From Tetmemena sp. SeJ-2015 (Eukaryota > Ciliophora > Spirotrichea > Sporadotrichida > Oxytrichidae): 64,000 bases of DNA. The notes beneath the pieces are model-generated. The model searched no databases. It was given only the letters and a program-made list of their open reading frames with translations, and was not told the origin of the DNA. The position numbers and the translations under genes were made by a program. Of the stretch, positions 42,201 to 53,500 are shown in pieces. The first letter of the stretch is position 1. Each line of letters begins with the position of its first letter. The DNA lies in assembly GCA_027382625.1 (NCBI GenBank), contig JAJKFJ010021446.1:62001-126000 (forward strand), written 5' to 3'.

Positions 42201-42518
42201 TAATTTTCTACCTAAGATGGTTCGAGTGCTTCTCAGTAGTAGTATAATTTAAAAGGCTTGAGAGTTGGATAAGCCAATAGTCAAATGGTGCCACTCTAAT
42301 AGTAGATTCAACCTACCACTTTGCTTAACCCGAAGAATATAAAGTACAATTTCATTTTTATGAGATAAGAAAAAGCTCATAAGTGCAACATTGAATTCAG
42401 GAAGTGCGGCTAGAGCTATCAAGCCAAAGTTGAATATAAGTGGGGGAGCAAATATTACATCTACGCAGAGATTAGCTAAAAGATGAATATTTTGAATGAA
42501 TAAATCTAGTGCTTATGA
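36223..42518 (+). CDS. very large Q/N-rich TPR-like protein
   Basis: The ATG at 36223 (MDNSKDKQSLMQSQNAQAQS) opens a reading that can be followed through many IESs to TGA 42516-42518, more than 1,700 residues. TPR-like helices appear three times: DPNYIASLYYNLACCYQRLG followed by MLEECVDYLELATKSL; INQHRDALIYGHKSANLCQK; and EAYHAKALHISTIFLPPDCP. A conserved-looking stretch reads FKMSVRNVLGLRHSDDWIFN. The rest is extremely rich in Gln and Asn. IESs found: 36376-36407 AATT; 38321-38349 GCTAA; 38934-39233 TTTAT; 40169-40236 AAGAA; 42028-42041 AACT. There are probable ones near 37030, 39480-39517 (CTT), 39553-39592 (AAAAT) and 39706-39739 (AATTAA). More remain unresolved near 37150-37350, 40660-40690, 40970 and 41580-41800. 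I treat it as one gene because each junction continues the same style and frame; a split into two genes is possible. Confidence 0.5.
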
Positions 42519-43041
42519 AATTCTTTTTTAAATCGAAGTGTTATCTTTAATTCTCAATACATTTTAATCTAAAGAGTATCAATTAAAGTGTATTCAAGTT
42601 AATTACCTTTCAAAGATCAAAATCGTCCAAAATATTTAAGTAAGAAGTTAAATTTCTTTTTAAAAATGAGGAATAATTTATTAAATATTATTGTAAATTA
42701 TATTAAAACTTTAATAAAAATTGTAAGTTGTAAAAATAGTTTCTTTAAATCAAAATAGTAATTATCAAAATAATATAGCAACGTGAATAAGTTTAAAAAT
42801 TAGCCTCTCTGGGATTATTTTGTTAAATTAAATTTATTATATAAAATTATTATAGATGGTAGCAACTACTTATAAATTTTCTATTTCAAATTTGAGCTTC
42901 TGTAAAAAAATTATCAATATTATTGAATTGATGAATCTTTGAAATAGATTTGTTTAAAATATTAAATCTAATAAATCTTAAAATATTGCAACTATTAATC
43001 TTGAAAACCATTTATTGATTTAGCTTTTTAATTAGCGTATA
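42519..43041. other. AT-rich intergenic region
   Basis: No coding segment is seen between the large Q-rich gene and the FAHD1 start. Confidence 0.5.
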
Positions 43042-46000
43042 ATGTCACAGTAAGCAGCCTACCTCTTCAATGAGGTTCTATCTAACAAAACCCTCCAGCG
43101 AAAGTGCCTCGGAATTGCTAAGAACTACTTCACTCAAGCAATGAAGAATGATCCCAAGCAAGTCGTACTTCCCAGTACCCTTACATCTTCAGCAAGACTC
43201 TCTCATCGTAAGTTCTAATTCCTCCTCCTTATCATCTTAATAGCTTTTCAAATTTAATAGAGCTAAAGTTTTTGAAGCTTACTGCCAAAGGGATAGAGTT
43301 TTACGATTCCAGCTCACAGCCGCAACGGTGGTGTATTTCATGAAGTTGAATTAGGAGTGATGATGAAGAAGGGAGGAAGACATCACCATAAGCTCTCAGA
43401 GTGGCAGCAGGACATTTATTTATGAAAGTTGAATACCCTTTTTAAATCTTACTGATTTAAATTGCTGGTTACTTCTTGCTGATTGACTACACTGACTTTG
43501 ATGTGACTAAGCAGTCAGTTTAGAATGGACTTCCTTGGTACCTCTCAAAGGCTCAAGATGGATTCTTGTGCCTGAGCGATTTCATTCCTGCTGAAGCAAT
43601 AGATGATCCTCATTAAGTAAATACTTACTATAATTATTCTATTGAGTCCTCTTTTATCTTTTATAAATATTTGTGAGACAGCTTTCAGCTTATATGAGAA
43701 CCTTGCAAACAAAAAAGGAGGAAACCTGCTAGCAAACTTTGGCGACTTAGGCTCTTAATTTGCCCGTGCTCAAACATCCCAAGGAGTGAAACAGAAGGTT
43801 ATTTTTAATTTGAGATTCCTCAATCGCCATTTCCTACAAATTCGGCTACCTAGGTTCAAGCTGGGTAACTTGGGAGCTAAACTTCTTCGTAAAACTCACT
43901 GAGATAGCTAAGTGACATAGACCTGTATAAATTCATAGAGCTACCTTGCTTCAGTTTGCTGAGTGAGGATGTTAGCGCAATAGTAAGAGGTATCAATCTA
44001 GTCAAGCAGGCCAATCATACCTAGATATATAGATGATGAATAATCATTTATAATTCTTGTTAAATGTCTTGTCACAAATTTCTTAGACTCAAAGCAGAGG
44101 CAACTAGAATGCTATTCTTGAGTTGAACAATTTCCCCTCATCATAGTATGGAACTGCCTCACTAAGTCAATCTCCTAATAAGCCCAAGAAAAGTGTAGCT
44201 GCTAGTTTTTCAATGAGAAATACCATCAGATAATCAAATCCAGGTGGCGGCTTATTCACTCTCAACGAAGTTCAAAGCAATACCCAAGGTGGATTTAATA
44301 CAGCAAGGAACAGTCAATTAGAGAAAATAAGAGAGTTATTTTTTATAATATTGTCAGGTTCAAAATTTGGGCAGCTAGACTTTACAATTTGACAACAAGT
44401 AATTATAAGCACAGGCGTAGTAGACATAAGAAGGAAATGAGTTATACCATTCAGTTATCAAGCGCTTTTCTTTCATTATTTTTACTAGTATTTAAATATT
44501 TTCGAGAAATAGAAACCTAACGGGAGTAGCTTAAAATCATTTGACAACCACTCTAAACTATTTAATTTATATTTTTATGATCTAAGTTGCTTAAAAGAAG
44601 GGAGAGAGACATCTGTCGCAAGTTAGACTTTCAAAAATTTAGAAAGAAGAGCGCATACAGCTGCAGGGAAAGGCTAAAGGTAAAAACTAAAGATAGCAAA
44701 TTTCATTCAGTTGGAAGAGCGAAAAGAGGATAAAGATTCTAGCAAGCTTTAAATTCCGCTCGATTATTAAAACACAAGAGATTTAATATATATGATATTA
44801 TTTTATGAGATGAGCAAGATAAAGTAAGGAGAGAGTTATTCTCAGCGCAAGCAAGCAGTCGAAACTAACTAAAACTGTCATCAATTCCTTTCTCTTAGTG
44901 TGCTAAGTCTACTTACACAAAGTATGACAGTCTCTTTGAACTAAAACAAGGCTTAGGAGATGAGTAATTTTCTTCTAACTCTAATGCATTCGCAAAAACT
45001 TTAAAGTATATTTAACTTCAGGATTTGAGACTGTGAGGGCTTTAAGAGAGCAAGCAACTTATTTTTGTAAATAGTTTATTCTATATTTAAGCAAAATTAG
45101 ATGTTGAAGATCATCCAGAAAACATATTTATAATTTAAATCTTTTATCCTAAGTATTGTGCGTGCGACTGGGATATTAAGAAGCCTCAGAAACCAAAGTC
45201 AAACTTAGTCAACAAAAATATTGAGCCAGCTGTTATATAGTAAATAGAGCAGTAGGACCCTTAAGTAGCTAAAAAAGATTTCTTAAAAGCTTTACTTATA
45301 ATTGTTTAAGAGTTCAAAGGAACCAATTACATTCTATCAAGACCCAAAAGCATCAGTTTATTGCAGAGATACAAAGGGGTGCTTCAGTCCTCAGCTTACT
45401 TGGTGTTTAAAACACATCAGATGAAAATTCAAATGACACAAAACCTGATAAGCCAATGTTTAGTTTATTTGCTTTCATATGACTACCAAATCTTAGAATA
45501 ACCAAACTAAACCAAAATCAGGCTAAGGCATAAGATCGCAAAACATCATAGGAGCATCTAATTCAAGAAATCACCAAATTTTAAATTTAATTATCGACAA
45601 ATGGTATAACTTATGCAAAAATTATAATATTACGAAATATATTTTTCATTAATTTTAATTTATCTCATATTAAAATGAAAAATCAGAATTGGTAGATGCC
45701 AGAGAGGGAATCTAAAATTTCTTTATAGGATTTTCAAAAGAAAGTTAAATTTCTGTTCAACTAAGGCACTCCAGATATAATTCTTTTAGCAATTTAACTA
45801 CTCTACGGAGAAGGGACGCTTGGTTGCTTCTTATAAACTATGATTGGGCAAGATTAAAGTTAAATATTTCCTACTATATCATTTTTAGATCCTTAGAGTT
45901 TTGTGATCGAGAAGTGGCCAATGTTTTAAAGGAAGACCTATGATAAACAAGCACAAATCCTTTAAGATATAGCCATTGAAAAGGCAGAAAAAACAGAGAT

Positions 46001-49000
46001 ATTAGTTATAAGGAGAGATTTCTAAAAACTTCAAGTTACAAAGATTTTTAGAATTGGAATACTAAACTCGCTTAAAGATTTCCACGAGACTATTCTATTT
46101 AAATTTTACTCCTCATGGAACTGTGAGCTACTACTTCATTCCTGATAACCTTGGAAATAAACTCACTGGCGAAATTGAATAGAGCTTCATAAATAAGGTT
46201 TAGATACTATTCACGCAATTATGTGACCCAAAGTCTTAAAATAAATATATTGATAAGTTGAATAATGGAGCTGGAATAACTCTCCCTATTTCGTTTCACA
46301 AAGTGTAAGTTTAGTAGATTCTTCTTATACCTATATTTAGCACTTGCTGTTTGGAAAGAACCAATCAATCTTGGCTGAGAGATTATTCCGCTATCTTGAG
46401 TTGAAGCAAAATTAATTTAACGAGGCGTACAGCAAGAACTATAATAATTCAAACCCCTACATTTCTCACTCTACTTCTCACATAGATTACCAGGCCTTCC
46501 TAGCCTTTTGCTTTGACTGCCAAAGAAATGTAAGATTCATCTCAATTTGTGAAATATTATAAAGACGAGAGTGCCATTTGATTGCTGGAATATATCATTC
46601 TGGCTATATGCATAGCAAGATCCCTCTCATTAAGTGATTGTGTGCAAGGACTTGCTCAAACTCACAGCATCTGAAAATTGGAATTTGGCTTGCCCTAACT
46701 TTGAAACTGAAATTAACACGCTCAAATACTAATTCCTATTTATGATTAGCTCTTGGGCTATATTTTAGCCAAAGGGAAGCTGAGCAAGAAAGATCTGGGT
46801 TCGGCTGTAACATCAGGCGAAGGAAGAATATTCAACATTGAAAACCACATGAAGATTAATCTCTTAATTTATCGTTTTTTTTACCTTTTTCTCTTCACTT
46901 ACAAGGAAATAATGAAGGAGAAGTTTGGAGACTGTTGCAAACCACCCTTGCTACAGATTATCTCCAAGCATTTTGATCAGGTCACTGAATCTATAATAAA
47001 GTATGACGAGCAAGTTTAGCAACCACAGCCTCCTCAGAATAATTTAGTAAATGTCTCTTCCCACAAATGTGTGAACTTTCATTCTATTTCTTACTACTTA
47101 AACGTCTAAATAGCTGCATATGAAGTGTTCTCATAGACAAAAATTTTTTAAGTTAAATCAAAGCTCAAACACCATGGCTTCATAAAAATCTTTGTAGGTG
47201 AATTTTCCATCCTTGTCTCCATCAAGCTCCATAAACATCTCTATAGCGACATCCCTATCTATAGTTACTAGATCTTCGCTCTGCCCTCCAGGCATAAATC
47301 TATCAAAATGTTCATAATAGTCCTTAATCGTTAGGTAACCTTTCTCTTTTCCACCTAATAACTCCCAAGCTGAATTAATCATGTCAGCTTGATTTGCATA
47401 TTAAGTAGAGTGAAATTGCATTACTCTAATAAGAAATAAGTAATTAAGATATTGCAAGCTATGCATAGTACTTGATGAAGTAGGGTAAGATTATGAGGCC
47501 TGCTTCTCATGAACCTATTATAGATAGAGTGTCATAAGCTAGGTAAATTTCTAGAGTGTGATTTTAAACTCAAGACTAGAAGAGTTTTACTCAAGGCCTA
47601 TGAATTACTTAGCCAAGGCAATATCTTGCTTTGAGGGTTTCATCCCAATCAAGAAAATAAAGGCGCATTTGAATTCAAGCTTTGAGAGGAACCTCTTACC
47701 TTCGAAATCATATTTCTCAAAAGCTTTTGCTAACTGCTTAAGCTGATTTTCATAAGCAAATTATTGCTATTTTGAGGATGAGGACTGCTAATTACTTCTA
47801 TTGAATTAGTTTGTAGCATTTATGGGATACTATGGCTATAAATTTCGATTATTAATTGAGCTTTGAGGAACCTAAGTTGATTTAGGTGGTAGCTATCTTC
47901 CAAAAGATTATTGGAATGGATTTTAGCTAATAGATGATTATATAGAGTGTGCAGCCATCATATTCTAATTATTCATGTATGAGTTTTGTTGTTAATAAAC
48001 TTATTGATGGATATACCTTTAATCCTAGTTCTGGCTTTGCAAGAAGTCCTTGTTTAGGATAATAGGAGGGAGTTTATTAAAGAAGTTAATTTTATAAGGC
48101 AGCATAATTATTTTGAGTATTGCTTAATAGTGGTGGTTAGTGGAGGGAACTTGCTTCTGATAAACATTCTGAGCTTGAGTTAATATTGATTCCTCTTGGC
48201 AAAACTGGCTTTTATAATAATTGGTCAAGCATTCTTTTAGTGTCACTATTATTGCTCATAATTATAGCTGTTTATATTTTTTAATGAATTAAATTAAATT
48301 AATTTAATCATCTTTGGTTCAAATTTTTAGTTTTAAATAATTCTTGTAAAAAATTTTATGAGCTTTTTATTTTTTTCAAAAATCTTGCAATTGTAATAAA
48401 TGAATGTTCTTTTTTTCAAAAATTTATATAGAGAATTGAAATGAAGCGATAATATCTTTAGTTTAAAATGAGAAAATTTAAATTTAATTGATTTACTTTA
48501 ATTAATTATGATTTAAAATCCTCTAACAATTTTAACCGCATTAGCAGTAAAAATTTACAATTAATTCTGTCATTTTATTAAAAGTTTCTACTTCTTCAGA
48601 AAGTTTGTTATGAGAAGAGTCAATTTATACAAATCTTTAACACAGGATAATTAAACAAATTAATTAAAAATAGAATTTTCTGACATTTCAATACCTTAAC
48701 AAATTAATTTTATTCTCCCTCCGCAAAAGAATACAATTAAAAAAATAGGAAAAAAATAGAAGCAGATCTAAACCTTATTTTAGATGCTGAAGCATTTATA
48801 CTTTATAATTCATAGAATTTTTGAATTAATCCTATTTATATTTGTGTCCATTTCATTAATTTTCCTTATTTGATCCCTCATTTGATCTACTGGCTATTGT
48901 TCATGAATCGAAGTGGGTAAGAATGAATTTATAAATAAATTTATTCACAATACTATTTTAATTTGAGTTATTGTTGTTCCCATATGAATTTTTTATGATG

Positions 49001-50543
49001 ATCTCCTACTAAAAATCCTATGAGTTTCTAATCTAGTTATCACTCTACATTTGTTAGCTTGTTTCTTCAAAATAGTTAGGTGGAGAAGAGAACTCCTCTT
49101 GCTGATATTAATTTTAAGCCATCATTAGATTATTTTAAATTTGAATTGAAAAGTTTTAAAAAGAGGGTCTAAGTTTTTTGAGAAAATAAATTTTTTGGGT
49201 TTAAAATGCCTATTTTTGAGGAGATGGGGGATTTTGACGACCTCAAGATGGAAGTAAGTTAACATCACCAAAATGTGCAACAGAGTGTGAATTTTTCTCT
49301 ACTTTCAAACTATTCAAAACTTATTGGGATTTGAATATGCTTAAGTTACAGCTAAACAATAAGCGAAGAAAACATTTCTTAAATATTCTGATGCTAAATA
49401 TAATGATAGTTCTTGATGAAGTTGTAGTCGCAGGACTATGTTGGAGCGCAGGCCATTCAGAAGTAACTGCTCAAATTGCAGCCCCAGAACAAGCTAATCT
49501 AAGAATTCAACTCACTCCTGCCAGATGAGGTTGCAGCTTAAAGGGAAGCAGCAACTGGAGCACAGGAAGAAGAGGAATACTACGATGAAGAGGAGGGAGA
49601 GGAAGAGGGAGCCGAACCAGAAGAAGCAGAGGAAGAAGAGGAGGAATAAAAAGCTACTTAACAATAAGAGGAAGAAAAATCGGCTCCAGCAAGAGTAAGA
49701 GCGGAGGGAGAAGAAAGTGAAGAGTCAGATGAGGATGCATATGGAGAAGAGGACTATGATGAGGAGGGAAGGTACATTTGGGGGAAGGAGGGAACTGAGT
49801 GGGACTATTACTACCGAGAAGACAAGGAAGCTCATGAGAGAGGAGACCCAATCCACCCTTCAGTCATCAACACCAAGCCAATCAGAAATACTGAACTCTA
49901 AGCTACGCTCGACGATGGAGAAGCAGCAAGCACTGCTTCAACTTCTGCCAGCACAACTAATGGAGGAGTTTATAAGACTACTAACAAAATTAAATAAAAT
50001 TCAATATAATATGGATATAAATTTGGATAATTTATTTTAAATTTTACCGAAAAAACAAAAGAAGTTTGCAGGAAATATCGAATTACTCTCGTATAAATTT
50101 ATAAATTCATGTAACCATAAAATTCCTGTAAGTATACATTTTTATTTAAGACTAAGAAGAAGGCACCAAATGGAAATTCTTGGAAACCAAAATGAAGAAA
50201 GAAGATAAAATCTAAAACTTTGTTTTAATGCAATTACTATCAGAATTGATGTATCTAGATTTGCATTCTTTATGAATATGTGAGTCATTAAGTAGAGTTG
50301 GAATTGAAGATTAATGGACAGACCAAGCAGAAAGATATCACTGGCAACATGCACTTTAAAATCCATGAGCAGCTGGAGTATATCACTCGCTACTCAACTC
50401 TAGAAGCGGGAGATATCCTCATGACTGGAACTCCAGAAGGACTGGGGCCAGTTCATGAGGGAGACAAATTAGAAGCCACTCTCACTTACAAGGGAAAGCA
50501 ACTAGCAGCCATCACAGATCTTATTTAAAAAGCAAAGCATTGA
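43042..50543 (+). CDS. FAHD1: FAHD1-like fumarylacetoacetate hydrolase-domain protein, split into two distant germline blocks
   Basis: The N-terminal block (43042-43619) encodes CLGIAKNYFTQAM, YIFSKTLSSLLPKGQSFTIP, FHEVELGVMMKKGG with the metal-binding Glu pair, GYFLLIDYTDFDVTKQS, NGLPWYLSKAQDGF and FIPAEAIDDPHQV. The C-terminal block (50285-50543) continues ELELKINGQTKQK, DITGNMHF, YITRYSTLEAGDILMTG, TPEGLGPVHEGDKLEATL and ends at TGA 50541-50543. The two join in frame at the 10-bp pointer TCATTAAGTA (43610-43619 and 50285-50294). Together they give an almost complete FAHD1 (acylpyruvase/oxaloacetate decarboxylase family, mitochondrial or cytosolic) of about the usual length. Also removed: intron 43208-43277 and IES 43414-43460 (ATT). 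A frame change of two bases near 43145-43175 is not uniquely solved. The coordinates span the nested foreign genes, which are not part of this protein. Confidence 0.87.
43670..45600 (+). CDS. unrecognised low-complexity protein nested in the FAHD1 interval, 5' end not found
   Basis: Coding starts abruptly at AFSLYENLANKKGGNLLANF without an ATG, so a first MDS is missing or lies elsewhere. It continues QFARAQTSQGVKQKV, then after an ATT-pointer IES near 43803-43820 reads IPQSPFPTNSATQVQ and DLYKFIELPCFSLLSEDVS. Further segments (IRQSNPGGGLFTLNEVQSN near 44240; NFIQLEERKEDKDSSK near 44700; YILSRPKSISLLQRYKG near 45330) lie in different frames, so several more IESs are present. No domain is recognised. 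Both ends and the exact set of junctions are uncertain, and it may be more than one gene. Confidence 0.4.
45675..47395 (+). CDS. EF-hand protein, last MDS inverted
   Basis: The plus-strand part (45675-47052) starts MKNQNWQMPERESKISLQDF and includes GTVSYYFIPDNLGNKL, ILAERLFRYLELKQNQFNEA, HIDYQAFLAFCFDCQRVPFD and IENHMKEIMKEKFGDCCKPP. It stops making sense after QPPQNNLVN. The reverse strand from 47395 to 47158 then supplies QADMINSAWELLGGKEKGYL, a degenerate EF-hand, and ELDGDKDGKFTYKDF, a canonical EF-hand loop, with stop TGA. The inverted junction uses AAAT (47049-47052; reverse complement at 47392-47395) and stays in frame. IESs: 46089-46107 ACT; 46524-46567 AGA; 46852-46902 AAG; intron 46303-46340. 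A frame change near 46740-46755 is unresolved. Likely a calcium-binding regulatory protein. Alternatively the reverse-strand part is a small separate EF-hand gene starting at 47421. Confidence 0.6.
47158..47395 (-). other. inverted MDS encoding paired EF-hands
   Basis: The minus-strand coding segment ends with TGA at 47158-47160. It carries DGDKDGKFTYKD, a typical EF-hand calcium loop, and a preceding degenerate hand. Neighbouring coding DNA on both sides is on the plus strand. The upstream plus gene lacks a stop codon of its own and can be completed by this segment after inversion. Confidence 0.6.
47396..48287 (+). CDS. protein with C-terminal membrane anchor, 5' MDS not found
   Basis: Coding on the plus strand begins next to the inverted EF-hand MDS without an ATG. 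After IES removal it reads SEIASYAQYLMKQGKIMRPA, SHEPIIDRVSQARQILNSRL, NYLAKAISCFEGFIPIKKIK, FMGYYGYKFRLLIEEPKLIQ, CMSFVVNKLIDGYTFNPSSG and ends in a hydrophobic segment (ILLVSLLLLIIIAVYIF) just before TGA 48285-48287, as in tail-anchored or type I membrane proteins. IESs: 47415-47450 ATTGCA; 47547-47560 ATTT; 47735-47764 TGCT; 47856-47862 TTGAG (7 bp); 48109-48117 TATT (9 bp). The several Cys suggest an extracellular or lumenal region. I do not recognise the family. The missing start suggests scrambling or an unrecognised first MDS. Confidence 0.55.
47856..47862. other. 7-bp IES with TTGAG pointer
   Basis: TTGAG occurs twice with only two bases between. Excision removes an in-frame TGA and opens about 80 codons of protein-like sequence (EEPKLIQVVAIFQKIIGMD). 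Confidence 0.7.
48288..49205. other. AT-rich intergenic DNA inside the FAHD1 interval
   Basis: No coding segment is recognised between the nested membrane-tailed gene and the nested acidic gene. Confidence 0.45.
49206..50195 (+). CDS. small acidic protein nested in the FAHD1 interval
   Basis: ATG 49206 to TGA 50193-50195 gives 215 residues after removing 49247-49414 (GATG) and 49973-50146 (TAAGACTA); the codon sum is whole. The protein begins MPIFEEMGDFDDLKM, then has an amphipathic segment (AIQKQLLKLQPQNKLIQEFN), a long Glu-rich run with Tyr/Asp (EEEEYYDEEEGEEEG) and GRYIWGKEGTEWDYYYRED. A threonine/serine-rich piece and a basic end (YKTKKKAPNGNSWKPK) follow. Strongly acidic proteins of this sort are often nuclear chaperones or cytoskeletal linkers, but I cannot assign one. 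It ends 89 bp before the distal FAHD1 segment. Both pointers are clear, so the gene model is better than its annotation. Confidence 0.72.
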
Positions 50544-50567
50544 ACTCTATCGATTTATTTACAAAAA

Positions 50568-53500
50568 ATGTTAATTTTCTTTAGATTTCTATATCTTCCA
50601 GGAGTTAACATAAATTACACTTTTCAATCAGGTTATTAGGACATTATATAACAATACCTCTTTTAAAAGAATTAAGCGTACCTCATTTATAAAAATTGTG
50701 ATAACATAAAGGAAATTTATCGTAAATTCACTGAGGACTGTGTAAAAGAACTATCTAGAATTAAGAACCCCCCTTAGATTTTGCTTGACGTCGCCTTGCC
50801 TTTTCTGCAGCTTGTGTTTTAATCTAAAATTGTTGAGAGGTCTTAGATTTCATGGCAAAGCTTTTAAGATAGCTGTAGAGTTTTCTCAAATTTCAAAGAT
50901 GCGCTTTACAATTTTGTATTACTTTATAGAAAGGTATTTTAATTTTGTGCCTGAAGATATGAATCCTGATCTGCTGCAAGTGCTGATGCCTCTATGGAAG
51001 AATCAAGGCTCTTTAGTTATGAAGGTGACTAAACTTACTAGCAAGGGTGGAGCTAAATTGCTTTTGGAATTCATTTGCGCTAGTGTGGAGTACAAACTAA
51101 AAAAAGACATTCTTAACTAGAGTCTTATATAAAGAATTTAACTGCTTATAATTTATGTGGAGTCAAGATTTCACACTCACGCAGCAATAAGGAAAGCAAG
51201 AACTGATAGAGAGTGAGAAGCTAGAGATTGAGTTCAAACTAGCTCAACTTAAAGAGCAGTTGCAAGAAATAGAGCAATACATTCAAAGCTTAGAACAAGA
51301 ATAAAAAATTGCTGAAGAGCAAACAAGATTGCCTAATAAAGGGTAAAGAGAAAGAATAGCTAAGAGTACAAGCAGAGAAAGGATTAGAGATCTTTCCAAG
51401 GAAATAGTTGCAAGACTCCACTTAGCTGAGAATTATGAAGTACTCATTGACTCTACAATTGAAAAAGATCAACCAAAGACAATTCTCAAGTAAAATATTT
51501 GTGTTCAAATCTCTTATATCAAGATAAATCTATTCACTTTACAAGAAAGATGTGCATCGAAGGAGTTTCAACCATTTACAAAGCTTCCAATAAAATACGT
51601 AAAACACTCTCAACCCTTCTATCATGGGCTTTCAAAAAAAAGTATCAAAGTTTTGTCCAGCCATCTCAAAGCAATCAGATTAATTTAGGGAAAGCTTCTA
51701 GAGCTTGAACTCTCTTTAACAGAGACAGTTTTAATCCAATCAGAAAAAGAATTATCCCCTAGCTAATTCTTAACAAAAATAAGATTTAGATGGTTCTACT
51801 GATCAGCTACTTAATCAAAATGGCAACAGGTAAAACAATTCTCAATTGAACTTACCTTAAAGTTTCTAAAGAGAGAGAAACGAAGCTATTTAACAACCTA
51901 AATGGTAATATGACTAAAATTTTGGAGAAGTGGGTGGGACTTTTGATTAGTATAGTTTGAGTAATCATCAAATGAATTTCAATCCTATGTAAACTTCAAT
52001 TTCGCCATCAAGTTAGCCTGGCTAAATTGGCAACCTTAATTTGAGTTAGAGCTTTGGAAACCTTAGAATTCCATTTTCTTAGAACAGAAATGATTAGAGC
52101 AGCAATAGCTAAAATCACATTTACTCATCGATTAGTATAGCAAATAACAGATAGAGCTTGATCTCATAGCAAAGTGCCTCACTAATTTAACCTAATCTAA
52201 CTTCTTTAAATCAGAGATAAACGAATAAAGAAGAAGAGGGCACTATCTAATTCACAAGACCTGCCAATAATGGAACTATTTTAGTCGAACCAAAGTAAAA
52301 GCTAATTTAATCAGCAGGGAAAGTAAATACCGCTCTTACCAGATGCACAACTTAGTGGGTTCATTTAGCGCAGCTGGTAACATTTCTTAAGAAGGAGTGA
52401 ATTTACTAAATATTGATAAGATGAGTTAGGGAACGACAGGAAGTCTCATCTAAATAAGTACCAGGGAAGTTTTAAGTCCAGGATAGCCCTAATTATCCAA
52501 ATTTAGCGGAAATAGAAGAGAAATCATAGCTATAGAGGAGACTCCAGGTTCTGTTATTCCTAAGAACACTTATAATAAACTTGATTAGGATCTCGTAAAC
52601 TCAAAGAGCTTTGCGAACTATCAAAGTGAATTATAAAACCAATCTTTAGCTTTCGAAGGAAATTTCAGTAGAACTTTCCAAAATAACCCTAATAAGGAGA
52701 AAAGTGTTTCATCTTAAAAGCCTACGCCTTATATTGCGATAAGCGACATGTTTAATTCATTTACTCAAAGATAAAATGCAAAGACGCCTGATATCTCTAA
52801 ATAGTCATATGTTTCAGCTCTTATTCAGCCAACTAATAGATACAAAAAAGTGTTTGAACTTAATGAAAATGAGGAACAAGCTCATCAAAGCTTGAAGAAT
52901 AAAAAGTAGAGCGTCTAAATTATTCCTAATGCACCACCTCCTCTTTATGTAAGTTTCTTTACAAGTTTAATTAGTGATTTAGAGTCTGATACCAATGAGG
53001 AAAGACAATTAAAATACAAATAACCACATCTTAATAAGTGAGGCAAGTTCATCACCTAAAATCTTACAAAGTTCGAAAGCCAATCATGATAATTTATATA
53101 ATGGGCTGCTATAATCAATTTAGTCAAAGAATAGTTTAGGTCACTCTGCCTCAAAACCTTAACCCTCCTCAAGTTCTAGTTAACCTAAAATGCCACAATC
53201 AAGTTAGAAAGACAAGTTAAGAAACACATTTGTAAATGAATTCAATATTGGGAATGCGAAATCTCCTTAAGTTAATCTCGACTCTAAAGCTATCTTAATA
53301 CAGTCAAGTTCAAAGGAAAACTTAGTCTATCAACCACTTCAAAAGAGCAAAGTACAAAGTTTTAATAAGCAGACATAAAATCTGTTGTATCAAGATTCGA
53401 AAGGTACCAAGTCCTATCAGCAAGTTAAAGGAGTAATTATGGAATAGAGTAAGAAATATAGACTTTAATTATAATCCTTAGGTGAGGACGAGATACTGAA

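Follow-up and report, generated by a model that had tools for sequence, protein, structure and literature searches.

A FAHD1 gene split by a gene-bearing gap in ciliate germline DNA, a probable nested locus

The FAHD1-A gene is broken into two parts by a gap that carries coding sequence of other genes, and the parts can be rejoined in frame at a direct repeat. The window, that is, the whole 64-kb stretch of DNA that was analysed (G000:C2525:62001-126000), is part of a 193.9 kb contig. Four features were observed directly: a broken frame, an exact repeat where each half ends, an ungapped family match over the join and coding signal in the gap. We consider it probable, with good confidence, that FAHD1-A is non-scrambled and that its large IES embeds other genes, which would make it a nested ("Russian doll") locus.

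The assembly consists of 146.2 Mb in 5,213 contigs. From the size of this contig and the structure of the locus we infer that the DNA is germline (micronuclear); its source would be a spirotrich ciliate. TAA and TAG were read as Gln and TGA as the sole stop (table 6, the ciliate code); the FAHD1-A frame is open only with TAA and TAG as sense codons, and matches to kinase genes elsewhere in the assembly also contain them in frame. Some of these kinase matches recur with the same score on two or three contigs (for example C3489/C4744 and C692/C3114/C4315), which are probably haplotype or duplicate contigs. The C4A4 repeats of the assembly fit a spirotrich; a 20-mer gave 67 matches, and the backward control was the same palindromic string and was uninformative. 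C4A4 telomere repeats were seen within contigs (for example C2828:3805-4156), and nine contigs start with them at base 1 (for example C298:1-20).

The left part of FAHD1-A (43042..43619, + strand) runs from the ATG to the pointer with three interruptions, and the right part (50285..50543, + strand) runs from the pointer to the TGA; both were defined by sequence reading and by Pfam and PDB matches. The full reading, 43042-43161 + 43176-43207 + 43278-43413 + 43455-43609 + 50285-50543, gives 233 codons from ATG to TGA in code 6 when the three short left-half interruptions are omitted. The joined protein matches the Pfam family FAA_hydrolase at 2.9e-36, and its closest PDB relatives are FAHD1 chains at 6e-36. 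When it was compared with the whole assembly, 10 matches were obtained at E<=10, four of them on this contig, where the only matches are at window positions 43042-43185, 43261-43431, 43455-43622 and 50283-50540. An already joined copy of FAHD1-A was not found in the assembly by DNA and protein searches. Codon bias is retained in both halves (left 35.1, right 28.3), and the codon-model scan scored the FAHD1-A pieces at 10.1, 17.7, 14.9 and 32.7.

The pointer TCATTAAGTA is an exact 10-bp repeat with its first copy at 43610..43619 and its second at 50285..50294, both on the + strand; these are the only two exact copies on both strands of the 64-kb window. Repetition of a 10-mer means little by itself, because 183 of the 9,002 distinct 10-mers in the AT-rich 9.2 kb region are repeated. 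The position of the repeat is more informative: once the alignment sets a single displacement, 1.1e-4 of random place pairs (about 1 in 9,000 trials) show a run of 10 or more in a 40-nt zone, and the chance is 5.1e-4 when five in-frame displacements are allowed. The resulting junction, AIDDPHQV+ELELKINGQ, is ungapped against the PDB FAHD1 chains and against paralogue B of the same genome. The sequence-only reading had placed the two halves of one FAHD1 protein at 43.04-43.62 and 50.28-50.54 kb, with a 10-bp direct repeat exactly at the broken ends and an in-frame join that continues the family sequence. All three points are borne out, by protein matches at both sites, by the lack of a third pointer copy in the window, and by the open, ungapped joined frame.

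One point absent from the earlier reading is that the left half is itself non-contiguous, and stretches of 14, 70 and 41 nt must be omitted. Sequence reading suggests that the 14-nt frame-breaking stretch (43162..43175, + strand) is either a tiny IES with a 2-bp CA repeat or a tiny GT-AG intron, that the 70-nt GT-AG stretch (43208..43277, + strand) is probably an intron, and that the 41-nt stretch between ATTTA copies at 43414 and 43455 (43414..43454, + strand) is probably a small IES. The short repeats at these interruptions are weak evidence alone, because the chance of a repeat run within a 40-nt zone is 0.05 for a run of 5 and 0.93 for a run of 2.

The gap (43620..50284, no strand assigned), proposed as an IES from the join and the codon scan, corresponds to 6,675 nt removed when one pointer copy is counted. 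The codon model for the scan of 42.4-51.6 kb was trained on kinase loci: out of 30, 19 were kept and 11 were dropped as duplicates or as loci without both kinase motifs in one frame. The region itself served as background and first-order Markov shuffles as control. An earlier codon model, before the kinase-trained replacement, had detected gene E only. Three gap segments scored at least 15, on both strands: 46786-47010 (+, 19.0), 47164-47355 (-, 23.3) and 49434-49985 (+, 72.4). The shuffles gave 0.065 such segments per run, and their highest score over 200 runs was 19.0, which the first segment equals but does not exceed. Nine further gap segments scored 8.0-14.7, some of which are shadows of the strong ones in other frames or on the other strand.

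Six-frame scoring of the 11 gene-model pieces found the model frame best in 10, the exception being the final piece of gene E, which is 49 nt long; for two of the 10, both from gene D, the frame had been selected as the highest-scoring of the three forward ones. This result is support rather than a blind test, because every frame was initially chosen by visual inspection of open translations. A six-frame Pfam scan of 42500-51500 with read-through put FAA_hydrolase and EF-hand_7 alone above the curated cut-offs and showed no transposase family within the gap. Searches of the window for Rfam families (gathering scores) and for tRNAs gave no hits.

These sequence data support three nested genes, at 45.7-47.06 kb (+), 47.16-47.8 kb (-) and 49.2-50.2 kb (+), and a fourth (43.66-44.0 kb, +) is possible. 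The claim that the gap contains parts of four or more unrelated genes is thus upheld for three, by the codon scores of 19.0, 23.3 and 72.4, but not for the fourth. That candidate, gene A (43660..44016, + strand), is weak, with codon scores of -1.1 and -13.2, each the best of six frames; it may extend rightward, and it has no family match in Pfam or NCBIfam.

Gene C (45675..47059, + strand), read from the codon model and the sequence, appears to be supported in its 3' part and weak in its 5' part, which has a codon score of -23.6. It is interrupted by a 29-nt gap, where GCTC is repeated at 46720/46749, and has two short GT-AG stretches. A one-base frame change in a T-rich run of this gene (window 46090-46125) could be a sequence error, a tiny interruption or decay. 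A 9/10 match to TCATTAAGTA also lies inside the gene, at window 46627-46636; it is probably due to chance, because 17 places in the window, the two exact copies included, match the pointer with at most one mismatch. Gene E (49206..50195, + strand), from the same two sources, is readable from ATG to TGA and would encode an acidic protein; an 8-bp repeat, TAAGACTA, at 49973 and 50147 flanks a 174-nt gap. Genes C and E belong to no known family, with nothing above cut-off in Pfam, NCBIfam and PDB sequence searches.

Gene D (47158..48259, - strand) is a predicted EF-hand protein from Pfam and the codon model, with a domain match at 7.7e-10. The part at 47158-47800 is supported and the N-terminal exon, which is not best in the chosen frame, is not; the whole model scores -59.3, still the best of six frames. 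Searches that included a local BLAST placed remote relatives on three further contigs, at 24-26% identity and E 0.003-0.005, and PDB gave no match at 0.001.

A second FAHD1 gene, paralogue B, is located at C2744:38864-39417 (-) and C4140:19103-19638 (+), on two contigs that are 99.5% identical over 3,186 nt. It has no large gap at the site where FAHD1-A is broken. The sequence-only reading had named a second complete FAHD1 gene as a finding that would speak against the split locus; the gene does exist, but as a paralogue with 38% identity to FAHD1-A (80/208) it is not the somatic version of that locus. By side of the break, the identity between A and B is 44/117 aligned residues on the left and 36/79 on the right. 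Near its start, B has a two-base frame discrepancy.

The HEVELG and LIDYTD segments of FAHD1-A align to FAHD1, and their residues are presumably the Glu/Glu/Asp metal ligands of the FAH superfamily. After NY, FAHD1-A reads NYFTQAMKN, FAHD1 reads NYADHVKEM and paralogue B reads NYVAHAKEL, so that F and A of FAHD1-A are aligned to a His and a Glu that B keeps; we take this pair to be the catalytic His30/Glu33 of FAHD1. The FAA_hydrolase domain and the aligned motifs place FAHD1-A in the FAH superfamily, while by this alignment it lacks the His-Glu signature of a FAHD1 acylpyruvase. Since B keeps the motif that is absent from FAHD1-A, it is the likelier acylpyruvase, and FAHD1-A may be repurposed or dispensable. 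The structures of FAHD1 acylpyruvase (PDB 6fog, 6sbi) share with FAHD1-A the FAA_hydrolase domain, HEVELG and TGTP, ungapped over the join; they have the His-Glu pair after NY, as does B, whereas FAHD1-A does not.

A pointer-joined gene with a gene-bearing IES does better than the three other readings that we weighed. FAHD1-A could be a dead duplicate, broken in the germline by an insertion or translocation and left unjoined, with B doing the work and the repeat being a relic or target-site-like. In favour of this, paralogue B lacks the large gap and keeps NYVAHAKEL where A has NYFTQAMKN; with its His-Glu motif absent, FAHD1-A may be a decaying or repurposed copy. However, the frame runs for 233 codons without a TGA or an unexplained frame change once the three small interruptions are omitted, codon bias and family identity persist to the left and right of the break, and the repeat is located exactly where joining preserves the frame. 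We therefore regard a dead duplicate as unlikely.

There is only a very slim chance that the halves are adjacent merely in the assembled contig through misassembly, given that they are in the correct order and on the correct strand with a pointer. In a DNA search of the assembly that covered 43042-43640, 43590-46600 and 49900-50700, each stretch was single-copy and present on this contig only, including the two that span the gap edges. A very long intron containing other genes, with GT at 43617 and AG at 50296-50297, is favoured by the GTAAAT that follows the left part and would also preserve the frame. Its protein, however, would be two residues shorter than FAHD1 where the pointer join is ungapped; such an intron would leave the 10-bp repeat unexplained and would far exceed the 35-70 nt introns read at the locus, so its probability is negligible.

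The preferred reading, a large gene-bearing IES within FAHD1-A, has some points counting against it: the frame stays open only if three interruptions are omitted, of which two have no more than short repeats, the genome has a second FAHD1 gene, FAHD1-A lacks the His-Glu motif, and gene A and the N-terminal part of gene D are without codon-score support. Under this reading, the FAHD1-A pieces, already in order, would be joined as the somatic nucleus develops. Recombination between the TCATTAAGTA copies would take the 6,675 nt out, leave one copy and make the frame continuous. The excised stretch would hold three or more further genes, distributed over the two strands and with E readable complete, that would go to their own somatic chromosomes. 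Because the removed stretch bears genes, the gap would have to be both cut from FAHD1-A and processed for its own genes. Excision, the somatic chromosomes and telomere addition are modelled here on descriptions of Oxytricha; somatic joining, separate chromosomes for the nested genes and the origin of the locus are likewise inferences.

The nested genes look embedded in the gap. Six-frame Pfam scans of the flanks at 33.5-42.5 and 51.5-60.5 kb gave sub-cut-off matches only; with no match at the curated cut-off, they identified no gene with parts to the left and right of FAHD1-A. Of the description as an interleaved Russian doll locus, the gene-bearing IES with a pointer join is retained, and interleaving, which calls for pieces of the nested genes outside the gap, stays hypothetical. 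A further idea, that the very excision of 6.7 kb that restores FAHD1-A also releases genes C, D and E to form chromosomes of their own, is in our view very improbable. If this coupling were true, one pointer event would decide the fate of several genes, and their host would be a dispensable copy of a duplicated enzyme gene.

Nesting is frequent in O. trifallax, the best-studied relative: out of 15,811 somatic contigs, 1,301 surround parts of other contigs, to a depth of up to 4, and 1,847 occur solely embedded in others (Braun et al. 2018, PMC5940158). Judged by those counts, the FAHD1-A locus is a known kind of arrangement. As in the O. trifallax loci described there, germline pieces of one gene flank others; pointers in that account are 2-20 bp and nested genes are sometimes non-scrambled (PMC5940158). 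The O. trifallax maps were built on a somatic genome, whereas FAHD1-A is known from germline DNA alone, and the depth-1 hosts listed are often scrambled (724/1,163), whereas FAHD1-A, judged by the pieces that were located, is non-scrambled and shows one nesting layer (PMC5940158). Feng et al. 2022 (PMC9797194) describe nested clusters that are conserved between Oxytricha and Tetmemena. In the clusters presented there, long pointers bridge several embedded loci, as at FAHD1-A, but those two clusters were defined via somatic genomes, one with PCR, whereas the FAHD1-A locus is read from germline sequence (PMC9797194).

Among the papers listed in a literature search on FAHD1 or fumarylacetoacetate with ciliates, none gave an account of the FAHD1-A locus. 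The locus is a clean further example of an arrangement known from Oxytricha and would not surprise a specialist; since nesting is already established as a phenomenon, what it adds is an additional case that can be put to the test. It offers a compact, readable germline gene that encloses others, together with a paralogue in the same genome that lacks the large gap, and the A/B pair provides a comparison for how a duplicate gene turns host to other genes.

Very short frame-breaking interruptions recur in the genes read here, with lengths of 14, 17 and 29 nt in the window (43162-43175, 43798-43814 and 46720-46748) and 17 nt in paralogue B. Some are GT-AG-like, and some have repeats of 2-4 bp. 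The stretch in B, which must be omitted between KVNGNYT and QRDNT, has a TCA repeat and is not GT-AG, a hint of very small IESs in this species.
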